From Saprospiraceae bacterium (GTDB taxonomy: Bacteria; Bacteroidota; Bacteroidia; Chitinophagales; Saprospiraceae): DNA of 41,977 bases. Below the pieces are notes generated by a model. It saw nothing but the letters and a program-made list of their open reading frames with translations. It was not told the origin of the DNA and did no database searches. The DNA lies in the NCBI GenBank assembly GCA_027486765.1, contig JAIXOO010000128.1, positions 1 to 41,977 of the forward strand, in the 5' to 3' direction. A program made the translations under genes and the position numbers. This document shows positions 4,199-18,061 of this stretch, piece by piece. The number at the start of each line of letters is the position of its first letter. Positions within the stretch are counted from its first letter, which is position 1.

Positions 4199-5436
4199 AG
4201 CGAGTTAAAAATGAATTGACGCTACTGCTTTTTATACTGCTTACTAGCGGCTTGAGCATGACCGCCCAGCCCCTCGACAGCCTTGTCCAAATTGCTCTGC
4301 GCCAAAATCCCGAGCTCAAAGCCCGCTATACACGCTACCAATCCCAACTGGAGCGCGCGCCACAACAAAACCAATTGGCCGATCCCCAACTGGACTTCAG
4401 CACCCAATTCCTGCCTTTGCGCATGCGTACTTGGGAGCAAGCGGCGATCATTGGGGGCATGCAGGAATTTCCCTGGCCGGGCACCTTGTCAACCCGCTCA
4501 GCTTTGACGCTCAGTGAAGCGCGAGTGACTTACGAACAAGCGGAGGTCGAAGCGCTCAATCTTCGGTATGAAGTAAAAATGGCCTGGCTGGATTATTACC
4601 TGACCGTCAACAGCATCCATTTTTTAGAAGAAAGCATCACCTTGAGCCGCTCTGCCGAACGACTGGCACTAGCCAGAGTGGAGAGTGGCCGTGGAAATGC
4701 AACGGAGGTATTGAAAGTACAGTTGAAAATCCGCCAACAGGAGCAACAACTCAACTTGCTGAAAAACCGTACCCAATTCCCTCAATACCGCTTGAACCAA
4801 TTGCTGAATCGCCCAGCCCAAACCCCCATTCAATTGGATGGAACCCTGGAATTTGAAATTCTGCCTTTTCAAATGGATTCGCTTTTACAGCAAATCAAAC
4901 GAGAGCACCCGGCCATCAGCAGTTTGCGTTACGAAAAAGAAGCTTCACGTCAAATGGAAGCCTTGAACCGATTGGAAGGTAAACCAGACATTGGCCTGGG
5001 CTTGGACTACGTAGTGATGAGCAAAATAACCGAACACGGCCTGACCTCCGATGGCAAAGACATGGTGATGCCCCGTATTGGCATTCGTTTGCCCCTTTAC
5101 CGCAAAAAATACGAGGCCAAAGCGCGGGAAGAACAATTGCGCCGTGAAAGTTTAGACCTGGAAGCCCAGGCCCTGGGCAACGATTTTGCCGCAACCCTAG
5201 GTCGAGCCATGTCACTACAGGAGGAAGCGCGTCTGACCCACGAGTTTGTACAAGAACAACTCAAAACCCTCGATGCACTGATTAAAATGCAAGAGGGCAA
5301 TTTCAGTACCAATGCCGATTTGTACGAAAACCTATTGGAAAACTATGAACTGCGCTTGGAGTACCAATTGATGGATTTGGATGCCATTGTGAAGGTACAG
5401 CAGGCGAAGGCGGAGGTTGAGAAGTTGAGGAGTTGA
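4195..5436 (+). CDS. TolC-like outer-membrane efflux protein (CusC role)
   Basis: Outer-membrane channel of the tripartite efflux pump (OEP/TolC family). The ATG at 4195 overlaps the cusA stop by four bases and is followed by a signal peptide (TLLLFILLTSGLSMTAQ), so it is preferred over an in-frame ATG at 4147 inside cusA. The mature protein is mostly helical, with the duplicated long-helix pattern of the family (LNLRYEVKMAWLDYYLTVNS in the first half; repeats rich in Leu, Glu and Gln in the second). At 413 residues it is of normal size for Bacteroidota members. Its last codons (AEVEKLRS) are encoded by the left arm of the inverted repeat at 5415-5516, so that element has either extended or replaced the original C-terminus. 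Confidence 0.85.
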   Translation: MKRVKNELTLLLFILLTSGLSMTAQPLDSLVQIALRQNPELKARYTRYQSQLERAPQQNQLADPQLDFSTQFLPLRMRTWEQAAIIGGMQEFPWPGTLSTRSALTLSEARVTYEQAEVEALNLRYEVKMAWLDYYLTVNSIHFLEESITLSRSAERLALARVESGRGNATEVLKVQLKIRQQEQQLNLLKNRTQFPQYRLNQLLNRPAQTPIQLDGTLEFEILPFQMDSLLQQIKREHPAISSLRYEKEASRQMEALNRLEGKPDIGLGLDYVVMSKITEHGLTSDGKDMVMPRIGIRLPLYRKKYEAKAREEQLRRESLDLEAQALGNDFAATLGRAMSLQEEARLTHEFVQEQLKTLDALIKMQEGNFSTNADLYENLLENYELRLEYQLMDLDAIVKVQQAKAEVEKLRS

Positions 5437-15309: not shown

Positions 15310-16040
15310 TGAAAAGTAAAATTAAACTGGTCGCTTTTGACATGGCGGGTACAACCGTCCGCGACGAACACGAGGTAGAACACTGCTTTCGGCAAGCCGC
15401 CCTACAAACGGGCCTGGAAATGAGCGAAGCTGAAATTTTGGCCGTACAAGGTTGGGGCAAACGTTTTGTTTTTGAAACCTACTGGGAGCGGCAACTGGGA
15501 CAACGAGGTGAACATTGGTTGCAACAAGTAGATCATTCCTTTCATACCTTCACCCAAATTCTTGAAAACCATTACCTCACCCAGCCCATCTTGCCCACCG
15601 AAGGCGCTTTGGAAGTGTTTGCTTTTTTGCGTAAAAAAGGCATCAAAATCGCGCTGACCACGGGTTTTTACCGAAAGGTGACCGACATTATCCTGGATCG
15701 CTTGGGATGGTTGCAAGGATTAAATGAACAATATGTTAACACCGGAAACTCGTTGATTGATTGTTCCATTTCGAGTGATCAGGTTGTGGCAGGAAGACCA
15801 GCGCCGGACATGATTTTTAGGGCAATGCATTTGCTGCAAGTTGAAGCTCCTGCGAATGTCATTTCAGTTGGGGATACACCATCGGATATCCAGGCAGGAC
15901 AAAATGCTCAGCTTCTCCATAGCTTGGCCGTAGCAAATGGTACCCATCCAGCGGAGTTGTTGTTGCCCCATCACCCAACAAAAATGTTGGACACTATCCG
16001 GGATTTGATAGCCTATCTGGATGAAAATGATTTGTACTAA
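15306..16040 (+). CDS. PhnX-like HAD hydrolase (phosphonatase-like, TIGR03351-like)
   Basis: HAD-superfamily hydrolase of 244 residues, probably cleaving the C-P bond of a phosphono-aldehyde. Its nucleophile motif is FDMAGTTVRD (Asp12), the D-x-A-G-T form that sets phosphonatases apart from ordinary HADs. A cap-domain lysine (Lys52 in GWGKRF) sits where phosphonatase has its Schiff-base lysine. An arginine (AGRPAPD) replaces the usual HAD lysine before the last motif, VGDTPSDIQAG. All three are diagnostic of the PhnX/PhnX-like group. The ATG at 15306 overlaps the stop of the FAD oxidoreductase; a TTG at 15300 and ATG at 15309 are alternatives. An A/T-only hairpin follows the stop (16039-16059). 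Confidence 0.83.
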   Translation: MMKSKIKLVAFDMAGTTVRDEHEVEHCFRQAALQTGLEMSEAEILAVQGWGKRFVFETYWERQLGQRGEHWLQQVDHSFHTFTQILENHYLTQPILPTEGALEVFAFLRKKGIKIALTTGFYRKVTDIILDRLGWLQGLNEQYVNTGNSLIDCSISSDQVVAGRPAPDMIFRAMHLLQVEAPANVISVGDTPSDIQAGQNAQLLHSLAVANGTHPAELLLPHHPTKMLDTIRDLIAYLDENDLY

Positions 16041-16212
16041 TTTTTTTTGAAAAAAAATTCTGTAGTTTATTAAAACTGTTTAGTTTTGCACCGCACTATT
16101 TGCAAAAAGTTGCATGTGATTCAAAAAAGTGCAAGTTTTCCTTGTTTTTTTTGCCCAAAAACAGACAATGTGTGCTTTTCTTGGACGAAAAAATAACTTA
16201 ATTTGCTTTTCA

Positions 16213-16244
16213 TTTGCATCTTAAAAAGATTACTTTTATATTTG
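16213..16244 (+). promoter_or_regulatory. Bacteroidota-type promoter for the candidate RNA
   Basis: TTTG at 16213-16216, a 20-base spacer, then TATATTTG at 16237-16244, an exact TAnnTTTG. Transcription would begin near 16250. The same 20-base spacing is seen at the promoter at 25465-25495. No coding sequence follows for 270 bases. Confidence 0.65.
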
Positions 16245-16249
16245 CTAAA

Positions 16250-16396
16250 TAGTTCTTTTGACAGAGGTTTGTTCCTGTAACTAGGCGAAGTCTATAACAA
16301 TTCGTTGCTATTGACTTCGAGAAACTCGAAAAAGAACATTAACTGGGGTTTAGTTTTACTTAGGGCCGGGGAACTTATTGATCCTCGGTCTTTTTT
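16250..16396 (+). ncRNA. Candidate structured small RNA or leader RNA
   Basis: A likely promoter precedes it and an intrinsic terminator ends it. In between, the sequence folds into a three-way-junction-like shape. P1 pairs GTTCTTTT (16252-16259) with AAAAGAAC (16330-16337). P2 pairs ACAG with CTGT (16261-16264, 16275-16278). P3 pairs CGAAGTC with GACTTCG (16286-16292, 16313-16319), continuing to a TTCG loop at 16301-16304. A competing hairpin TTCGAG-AAA-CTCGAA (16316-16330) shares bases with P3 and P1. GTTCC in the P2 loop (16271-16275) is complementary to GGAAC in the terminator arm (16370-16374). It does not show the conserved motifs of SRP RNA, tmRNA or RNase P RNA; 6S-like RNA is not excluded. 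The rest of the gap 16041-16516 shows only AT-rich DNA and a possible second -7 box, TAAATTTG (16405-16412). Confidence 0.55.
16364..16396 (+). terminator. Intrinsic terminator of the candidate RNA
   Basis: The stem GGCCGGGGA (16364-16372) pairs with TCCTCGGTC (16382-16390), nine pairs with two G-U, a nine-base loop, and then six T (16391-16396). It lies 120 bases before the next start codon, so it could end a small RNA or act as an attenuator for the nucleotidase-like gene. Confidence 0.75.
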
Positions 16397-16516
16397 ATTT
16401 GTAGTAAATTTGTCAACCGTAGTCTAGTTGATTGTTTTTAACCTTGTTCTTGACGTACTAAATAGGACTCCTGTCTATTTTACTCTCCCTATCTTCACTT
16501 AGCCTAAAATCTCTCT

Positions 16517-18061
16517 ATGAAAAAATTGCAACCTTTAGGGCTATTGCTCCTCTTGTTCGTGGTAGAAAGTTGTGCCGTGAAAGTTCCACAACAGCGCATA
16601 CCACAAGCCATCGACTTTATCATTCTTCAAATCAATGACGTTTACGAGATCGCTCCTTTGGAGGGTGGCAACGCAGGTGGTCTGGCCAGAGTCGCCAGCA
16701 TTCGAAAAGAATTGCTCAAAGAAACCCCCAACGTAGTTACCGTCATCGCGGGGGACTTCCTTTCACCTAGCCTTACCGCCAACCTTAAGCTGGAAACGGG
16801 TGAAAAAATAGCTGGCCTTCAAATGATCGAAACACTTAATGCAATGGGGCTGGATTACGCCACTTTCGGGAATCATGAATTTGATGAAAGGGATTCAGCC
16901 CTGGTGCAAAAACGCTTCAACCAGTGTACATTTCGTTTTGTGAGCGCCAATGTGCGTCGGGTATACACGGGAGGAGCCATTGCACCCTTCAAACAGACAG
17001 TCAAGGGAAAAACAGAGCTGGTTCCTGATTTCATCAAACATACCTTTAAAAATAGTGCGGGGGACTCCATGAAGTTAGCCTTTACCGGGGTATTGCTGCC
17101 GTTTACCAAACGGCCCTACGTGCACTACTTGCCAGTGGAGGAAAACTTTCGCCGTGTGGTTGCCCAGGCCAAAACCCAGAGTGATGTAGTCGTAGCGCTA
17201 ACCCACCTTGCTGCTGCCGACGATCGGGCGCTGGCCGCAGCGGTGCCGGGCGTGCCCCTCTTCATTGGTGGCCACGACCACGACCATCAGGATCACTACG
17301 TGGAAAATACCATCATCACCAAGGCGGATGCCAATGCAAAAACGGTGTACATCCATCGCTGCAGGTTTGATCCCAACTCAAAATTGGTGCGGATTCAATC
17401 TTCACTTAAATATGTCAATGCCTCAATTCCTTCTGATCCCGCAACGGAGGCTGTAGTAAATAAATGGGTTTCCAAGGTGGACCAAACACTCCGCAACAAT
17501 GGCTACCAACCCGAACAAAAAATTGCCACCCTGCGCGAACCCCTGGAATGTAAAGAAACCGATATTCGCAGCCGTCAAACCAATTTTGGCGCCATGACAA
17601 CCCAGGCAATGGAATACGCCATGCCTGGCGCGGATGCCTACTTGATCAACTCGGGCTCCATGCGCATGGATGACAACCTGGCGGGCACGATGACCGTATA
17701 TGACGTAGTGCGTTCTTTTCCCTTTGGCGGTGGCTTCGCGCGGCAGGAAATCCCAGGATCGGAATTGAAAAATTTGCTGGACAACGGCCTGAAAAAGAAC
17801 AAAACTGAAGGTGGATACCTACAAGTCAGCCACATCAGTGAAGTAAATGGGGCCTGGCAGATCAATGGCAAACCCATCGACGACAAACAAATCTACAAAG
17901 TGGTGATTTCTTCCTTTGTGGCGGCAGGCAGTGAGGCCAATCTGGGTTTTATGGGCAAATATAAAGCCGATGAACCCAAAACATTGACCACCACCAAAGG
18001 AAAACAAATTAAAAATGATGTGCGGGACGTGGTGATTGAGTACATGACAGCCGCTTATTAA
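16517..18061 (+). CDS. 5'-nucleotidase/metallophosphatase family lipoprotein (UshA-like)
   Basis: A 514-residue envelope phosphoesterase. The leader ends in a lipobox (VVESC, Cys19). The N-terminal calcineurin-like domain has QINDVYEI (Asp41), AGDFLSPS (Asp80), GNHEFDE (Asn119, His120) and GGHDHDHQD. The C-terminal 5'-nucleotidase domain has NFGAMTTQAMEYAM, NSGSMRMDD and DVVRSFPFGG. Such enzymes release phosphate from nucleotides or sugar nucleotides outside the inner membrane. In the first metal motif the usual D-x-H is D-V-Y (Tyr43), a variant I also associate with some Bacteroidota members. It follows the candidate RNA and its terminator by 120 bases. Confidence 0.85.
   Translation: MKKLQPLGLLLLLFVVESCAVKVPQQRIPQAIDFIILQINDVYEIAPLEGGNAGGLARVASIRKELLKETPNVVTVIAGDFLSPSLTANLKLETGEKIAGLQMIETLNAMGLDYATFGNHEFDERDSALVQKRFNQCTFRFVSANVRRVYTGGAIAPFKQTVKGKTELVPDFIKHTFKNSAGDSMKLAFTGVLLPFTKRPYVHYLPVEENFRRVVAQAKTQSDVVVALTHLAAADDRALAAAVPGVPLFIGGHDHDHQDHYVENTIITKADANAKTVYIHRCRFDPNSKLVRIQSSLKYVNASIPSDPATEAVVNKWVSKVDQTLRNNGYQPEQKIATLREPLECKETDIRSRQTNFGAMTTQAMEYAMPGADAYLINSGSMRMDDNLAGTMTVYDVVRSFPFGGGFARQEIPGSELKNLLDNGLKKNKTEGGYLQVSHISEVNGAWQINGKPIDDKQIYKVVISSFVAAGSEANLGFMGKYKADEPKTLTTTKGKQIKNDVRDVVIEYMTAAY

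Follow-up and report, generated by a model that had tools for sequence, protein, structure and literature searches.

The window, i.e. the whole stretch of 41 977 nt analysed here, is contig C245 of a 7.7-Mb genome (G000) of the genus Haliscomenobacter. Pfam searches place the locus between a gene for a HAD-type hydrolase and one for a 5'-nucleotidase-like protein; the latter, a 5'-nucleotidase/metallophosphoesterase (PF02872, PF00149), lies downstream on the forward strand (16517–18061). On the same strand we read a promoter at 16213–16244, consisting of TTTG (16213–16216), a 20-nt spacer and TATATTTG (16237–16244), which we take to be of the Bacteroidota type, and an intrinsic terminator at 16364–16396, a G-U-rich hairpin that folds with arms at about 16364–16372 and 16382–16390 and is followed by six T residues (16391–16396). 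Both elements had been proposed in an earlier note on this DNA and are present as described there. With its start inferred from the promoter and its end from the T-run, the predicted small RNA comprises ~147 nt (16250–16396, forward strand). For the window, one set of features expected of a trans-acting small RNA is present, namely an intergenic, non-coding unit with a promoter and a terminator of its own.

Fold statistics and generic scans add little to this picture. The 147-nt unit has a folding energy of −40.6 kcal/mol compared to −31.7 kcal/mol (sd 3.45) for shuffled sequences (z = −2.58), a modest signal, as 5 of 200 shuffles fold equally well. In the region 16040–16520 a generic terminator scan (rule: loop of 3–8) returned no site, and a generic promoter scan, which does not cover Bacteroidota promoters, found one sigma-70-like site (1.2 expected). 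The comparative evidence for an RNA unit is much stronger. Homologues of the predicted RNA are found in all four other genomes of the genus, one over the full length with 96% identity (G003) and three in part (G001, G002 and G004). Promoter boxes like those of the window recur in G003, G001 and G002, as do the P3 hairpin, the core and the terminator described below. The promoter is clear in the window and its near relatives; further afield, an exact TAnnTTTG box upstream of the core is present in 22 of 61 copies (7.1 expected from shuffles) and absent from the other 39. In our view the stretch is apparently a genuine gene for a small RNA. The earlier note's suggestion of a separate RNA unit equipped with promoter and terminator is supported, and the RNA has no Rfam match.

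The 5' domain of the RNA was predicted to form a three-way junction closed by the helix P1, whose arms GTTCTTTT (16252–16259) and AAAAGAAC (16330–16337) are both present on the forward strand. As aligned, its pairs are kept partly in the relatives (8/8 in the window and in G003, 5/8 in G002 and 3/8 in G001), with one compensatory change in G002 (T-A to C-G). The hairpin P3 (16286–16319, forward strand) pairs CGAAGTC (16286–16292) with GACTTCG (16313–16319) below an inner helix; it retains 12 of 14 pairs in the window, 13 in G003, 14 in G001 and 13 in G002, and two of its pairs are altered on both sides among the four aligned Haliscomenobacter copies. In G004 a CGATT/AATCG hairpin occupies the place of P3 (by eye). 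Covariation among the relatives, the check proposed for this fold, speaks for P3 and weakly for P1; the three-way junction is supported in part. A competing hairpin, TTCGAG-AAA-CTCGAA (16316–16330, forward strand; arms 16316–16321 and 16325–16330), is present as predicted and is mutually exclusive with both P3 and P1. It is kept in all four aligned copies, save for one end pair in G002, and has an equivalent in G004, ATCGAG-tct-CTCGAT (by eye); since it hardly varies, covariation is no test of it. The proposed switch between GTTCC (16271–16275) and GGAAC (16370–16374) finds no support: both strings exist in the window, but the aligned place of the former reads GATCC in G001 and GACCC in G002, GTTCC itself occurring further upstream in G001. 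Beyond the genus, the 5' domains differ and cannot be aligned between genera by eye. The stretch before the core has a mean fold z of −1.26 (77 entries, 76 distinct copies); across the family, the 5' domain folds weakly.

The most conserved part of the RNA had escaped the earlier reader. A similarity search within the window's own genome revealed two further loci (contigs C17 and C242) that have only the 3' part in common with the unit, namely UAACUGGGGUUUAGUUUU (16340–16357) directly before an intrinsic terminator. This conserved core (TAACTGGGGTTTAGTTTT on the forward strand) is 18 nt long, lies just 5' of the terminator and is nearly invariant over 15 nt. Its portion AACTGGGGTTTAGTT is identical in all of 61 copies and, after additions, in 75 of 76; AACUGGGGUUUAGUU is likewise intact in 75 of 76, the single exception being G789 with one changed core letter. 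These figures are upper estimates, because the copies were found by their core, and degenerate or diverged copies do exist (G031b; L029 of G002). The core could be single-stranded or could fold weakly into a hairpin of AACU(G), a loop and (U)AGUU, on which covariation has no bearing because the core does not vary; at the DNA level it contains the near-dyad AACT-N7-AGTT. By folding, its accessibility is moderate, with a mean unpaired probability of 0.30–0.78 depending on the position.

Could the core instead mark the end of a short protein gene or leader peptide? A frame that would end in ...IDFENLxxEH* at the core runs open in G001, and G002 offers an ATG for it (20 codons). In the other three of the five genomes (the window's, G003 and G004) this frame is interrupted by stops, which contradicts a short ORF ending at the core and makes this explanation extremely improbable.

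Core-like words were also observed outside the copies counted here. G001 has another core-like copy, TTAACTGGGGTTTAGTTTATT, between the terminator and the nucleotidase gene (L032, G001:C166, about 4720–4745); at the same place the window has a diverged version. H. hydrossis carries a diverged paralogue with TTAACTGGGAGTTTAGTTTTACTTAGG and then a terminator-like hairpin (L029, G002:C1:6392105–6392143), and in G004 a G-rich array holds several diverged core-like words, e.g. AGGGTTTAGTTTTGCTTAGG and TGGGTTTAGTTTCACTCAGG (L030, G004:C27:47841–48182).

Downstream of the core, the sequence is more stably folded than its shuffles in all 77 entries (76 distinct copies; z from −2.4 to −8.5, mean −5.2); the terminator hairpins vary in their letters among the copies, yet they still fold. 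Among 16 aligned copies of the genus g7, six terminator pairs have both partners changed and no pair is lost. In most g7 copies, which measure ~100 nt, a −7-like TATATTG is followed by a short hairpin whose letters vary, by AAGAWTTTTTTATAACTGGGGTTTAGTTCAGG and by the terminator. The alignment comprises 16 of the 20 g7 copies read, without G266, G713 and G791 (different 5' part) and without G789, which is also the copy with the changed core letter; RNAalifold run on it did not place the 5' hairpin.

We determined the distribution of the RNA in two ways. Of 298 genomes belonging to the window's GTDB family, 16 contain an exact match to the 19-mer TAACTGGGGTTTAGTTTTA; none contains its reversed control. 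A search model made of core plus terminator, using the sequence only, matches in 79 of 398 genomes of the family at E ≤ 0.01. Within 65 of these 398 genomes we read 76 distinct copies with core and terminator, which span 23 of 112 genera and number 1 to 5 per genome read, the assembly G081 holding five. The remaining 14 of the 79 matched genomes are not counted: five were read and lack an intact core (G017, G097, G206, G207 and G767) and nine were left unread (G065, G113, G118, G141, G169, G175, G193, G728 and G776); G031b, with its degenerate core, is excluded from the counts as well. Searches of 298 order-level and 247 phylum-level genomes (545 together, the two samples overlapping each other and the family set) gave no hit below E = 1e−5 outside the family, the best one reaching 7.3e−5, and none of seven weak outside-family loci that we read has an intact core. 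Two loci from the same class but not from the family come close: L231 (G367:C6:69568–69622) has 12 of 16 core letters followed by a terminator-like hairpin and L237 (G340:C21:242265–242304) has 14 of 16; they may be chance matches or distant relatives. A core match of the phylum search in G569 sits in an apparent coding sequence (by eye) and was taken as chance.

Two copies are located on the Haliscomenobacter hydrossis DSM 1100 plasmids pHALHY01 and pHALHY02 (G002). These two (L069 and L070) and the copies at G000:C17 and G000:C242 may be grouped as plasmid-type copies, each of the four being preceded by a gene for a related hypothetical protein, which in pHALHY01 has 280 aa and no Pfam match; at pHALHY01, and by cluster also at G000:C242, a KilA-N gene comes directly after the copy. 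The occurrence of one match on each of the two plasmids and of one match per matching g7 genome, together with the near-dyad in the core, would fit a DNA-level element, such as a recombination or replication site or the end of a mobile element, that happens to adjoin a terminator. We regard this as very improbable, given that a terminator-like hairpin stands on the same side of the core in 76 distinct copies, that promoter boxes are enriched upstream and that one assembly (G081) has five copies.

The genes downstream of the RNA bear on the question whether it acts in cis. In a cis attenuator or riboswitch-like leader, the core would bind a ligand or a protein and thereby decide whether the polymerase passes into the downstream gene, and the position of the core directly 5' of the terminator suits such a role. 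In 51 of 61 copies an ORF of ≥90 aa begins on the same strand 20–500 nt downstream, and in 31 of 61 a DUF1015 gene lies on the same strand within 500 nt (32 if G157, a chimeric ORF call, is included; the identity rests on PF06245 for one member and on clustering for the others). All five chromosomal Haliscomenobacter copies have the nucleotidase neighbour cluster downstream, and in G010, G781 and G797 as little as ~24–35 nt separates the terminator from the start codon. Against this, the downstream genes are unrelated among genera, including besides the above EF-G (G119; G205 by cluster), KilA-N on the plasmids and further genes, and ten of the 61 copies have no same-strand ORF in range (G117, G176a, G081C84, G180, G242, G157, G320, G000C17, G081C61 and G081C79; G157 being the chimeric ORF call and G320 a contig end). 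Furthermore, of 27 gaps between the terminator and the start of DUF1015, 13 contain a −7-like box (2.7 expected), including the 24-nt gap of G010; the other 14 show no such box, which tells against a free small RNA. In all five Haliscomenobacter genomes RNA and DUF1015 are unlinked (in G002, for instance, the RNA lies at 2.02 Mb, near position 2,020,120 of contig C1, and DUF1015 at 3.10 Mb). The nucleotidase gene of the window is perhaps also a separate unit, as TAAATTTG at 16405–16412 could be its own −7 box. The separate loci in Haliscomenobacter and the −7-like box of DUF1015 favour a free small RNA. The attenuator named as an alternative in the earlier note is thus weakened by the differing neighbours and by the box of DUF1015, and is kept alive by the 51 copies with a same-strand gene downstream; we consider it a real possibility, albeit one with the smaller share of our confidence. 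The tally of downstream ORFs led us to shift a little weight from the free RNA to the attenuator.

With Rfam 15, neither the window nor any of five relative loci matched a family at its gathering score, 6S families included, as the earlier note had proposed to check, and a relaxed scan of 16000–16520 gave low matches only, none above the cut-off. 6S RNA, too, is a small, structured and free RNA of about this length, but the g7 copies have ~100 nt with hairpin, core and terminator and no long bulged helix; no RF00013 match was found in the window's genome (the same search matched 6 of 14 control genomes) and all Rfam models were negative in the window. The nearest described system is the FopS family of Bacteroides, which the new RNA resembles in plan, with a different position of the seed. 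FopS/GibS form a family of short, mostly intergenic RNAs with canonical promoters in a host with the RRM protein RbpB, which works with small RNAs; a member would be expected to bind RbpB and to repress SusC-type mRNAs, and FopS has 12–15 copies with a single-stranded seed at the 5' end followed by a terminator (PMC11697453). They thus share with the new RNA the phylum, the organization as a family of short RNAs and an RRM protein in the host, and differ in lineage, the new RNA being found in the GTDB family of Haliscomenobacter, and in copy number (12–15 vs 1 to 5 per genome) (PMC11697453). A single-stranded 5' seed of the FopS type is not seen in the new RNA, with its 5' end inferred from the promoters; its core lies behind a 5' domain, right before the terminator. 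Qrr and LhrC are named in the same source as paralogous sRNA families (PMC11697453). They are similar in that several sRNAs of one genome have a common conserved region. Both belong to other phyla, have another sequence and act on known targets.

In the literature covered, mostly outside the subscription journals, we found no mention of this RNA. Full-text searches for core strings returned, by title, only unrelated topics, mostly human and animal DNA methylation, and no small-RNA study of Saprospirales came up in the literature covered; to our knowledge, small RNAs of Bacteroidota outside Bacteroides have been little explored. We would place the RNA among the small regulatory RNA families, in an apparently undescribed one that is found in a single Bacteroidota family. 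A near-invariant core in 23 genera, the plasmid copies and a homologue in the sequenced type strain of H. hydrossis make it a handle on RNA regulation without Hfq.

On balance we think that 16250–16396 probably encodes a free small RNA, and that this RNA represents a new class restricted to one family. The RNA would be transcribed and act free of the neighbouring gene, its 5' hairpins and terminator framing the G-rich core as the working part. Conserved sRNA elements of this kind usually serve for base-pairing in trans, and for a free RNA we tentatively rank this as the most likely mechanism: the core would pair in trans with several mRNAs via a short GGGG-centred seed, perhaps with a small RRM protein as helper. 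We propose this helper because the genus has RRM proteins (RRM_1 in all five Haliscomenobacter genomes) and no Hfq match (none of the five). Long antisense pairing is not indicated. The exact 11-nt complement of the core, CTAAACCCCAG, occurs at 25 places in the five genomes compared to 37 for the reversed control, i.e. without any target excess; nine of these places are at RNA loci, one is at the second core of G001 and 15 are elsewhere. A single site is common to two genomes, the close pair G000 (C423) and G003 (C85), and in G003 it sits in frames open on both strands; another match falls into a SusC-like plug coding region, in G000 only and not at the start codon. The rarity of the complement relative to the control and the lack of a target beyond G000/G003 speak against such long pairing.

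A protein-binding core is a serious rival to pairing. For a free RNA, a core that serves as a protein-binding site, by which the RNA titrates or carries the protein, is our second choice, well behind seed pairing. Put as an explanation of the whole locus, the RNA would be a sponge or RNP component that sequesters or carries a protein, e.g. an RRM protein; CsrB, which sequesters CsrA, is an example of such an RNA. A sponge would agree with a conserved core that has no apparent antisense targets, with the RRM proteins present in all five genomes and with the second core-like copy after the terminator in G001. Each RNA, however, has a single core, and where G001 carries its second one the window and G003 show a diverged sequence; we therefore judge a sponge or RNP component distinctly unlikely. 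A broader version, which we rate as rather unlikely, would see a class of modular RNAs that only this Bacteroidota family possesses. Their core, near-invariant over 15–18 nt, would be a protein platform mounted on otherwise unrelated 5' domains on chromosomes and plasmids, and in Haliscomenobacter the alternative of the overlapping hairpins P3 and TTCGAG/CTCGAA would switch its exposure. If true, the core would be the binding site of a dedicated protein rather than part of a base-pairing sRNA.

Finally, four Haliscomenobacter genomes have a second conserved non-coding stretch upstream of their unlinked DUF1015 gene (L240:2280–2650 and L241:2280–2660 on the minus strand, L238:1090–1460 and L239:1180–1460). 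No Rfam match at E ≤ 0.5 was obtained for L240 and L241. Behind a TATATTTG box, the stretch contains GTTCCAGTATTATTTTCAGCCTTCT as an invariant block and, repeatedly, the words CTAGTCTT/TAGTCTTTG; it may represent a second unknown RNA.
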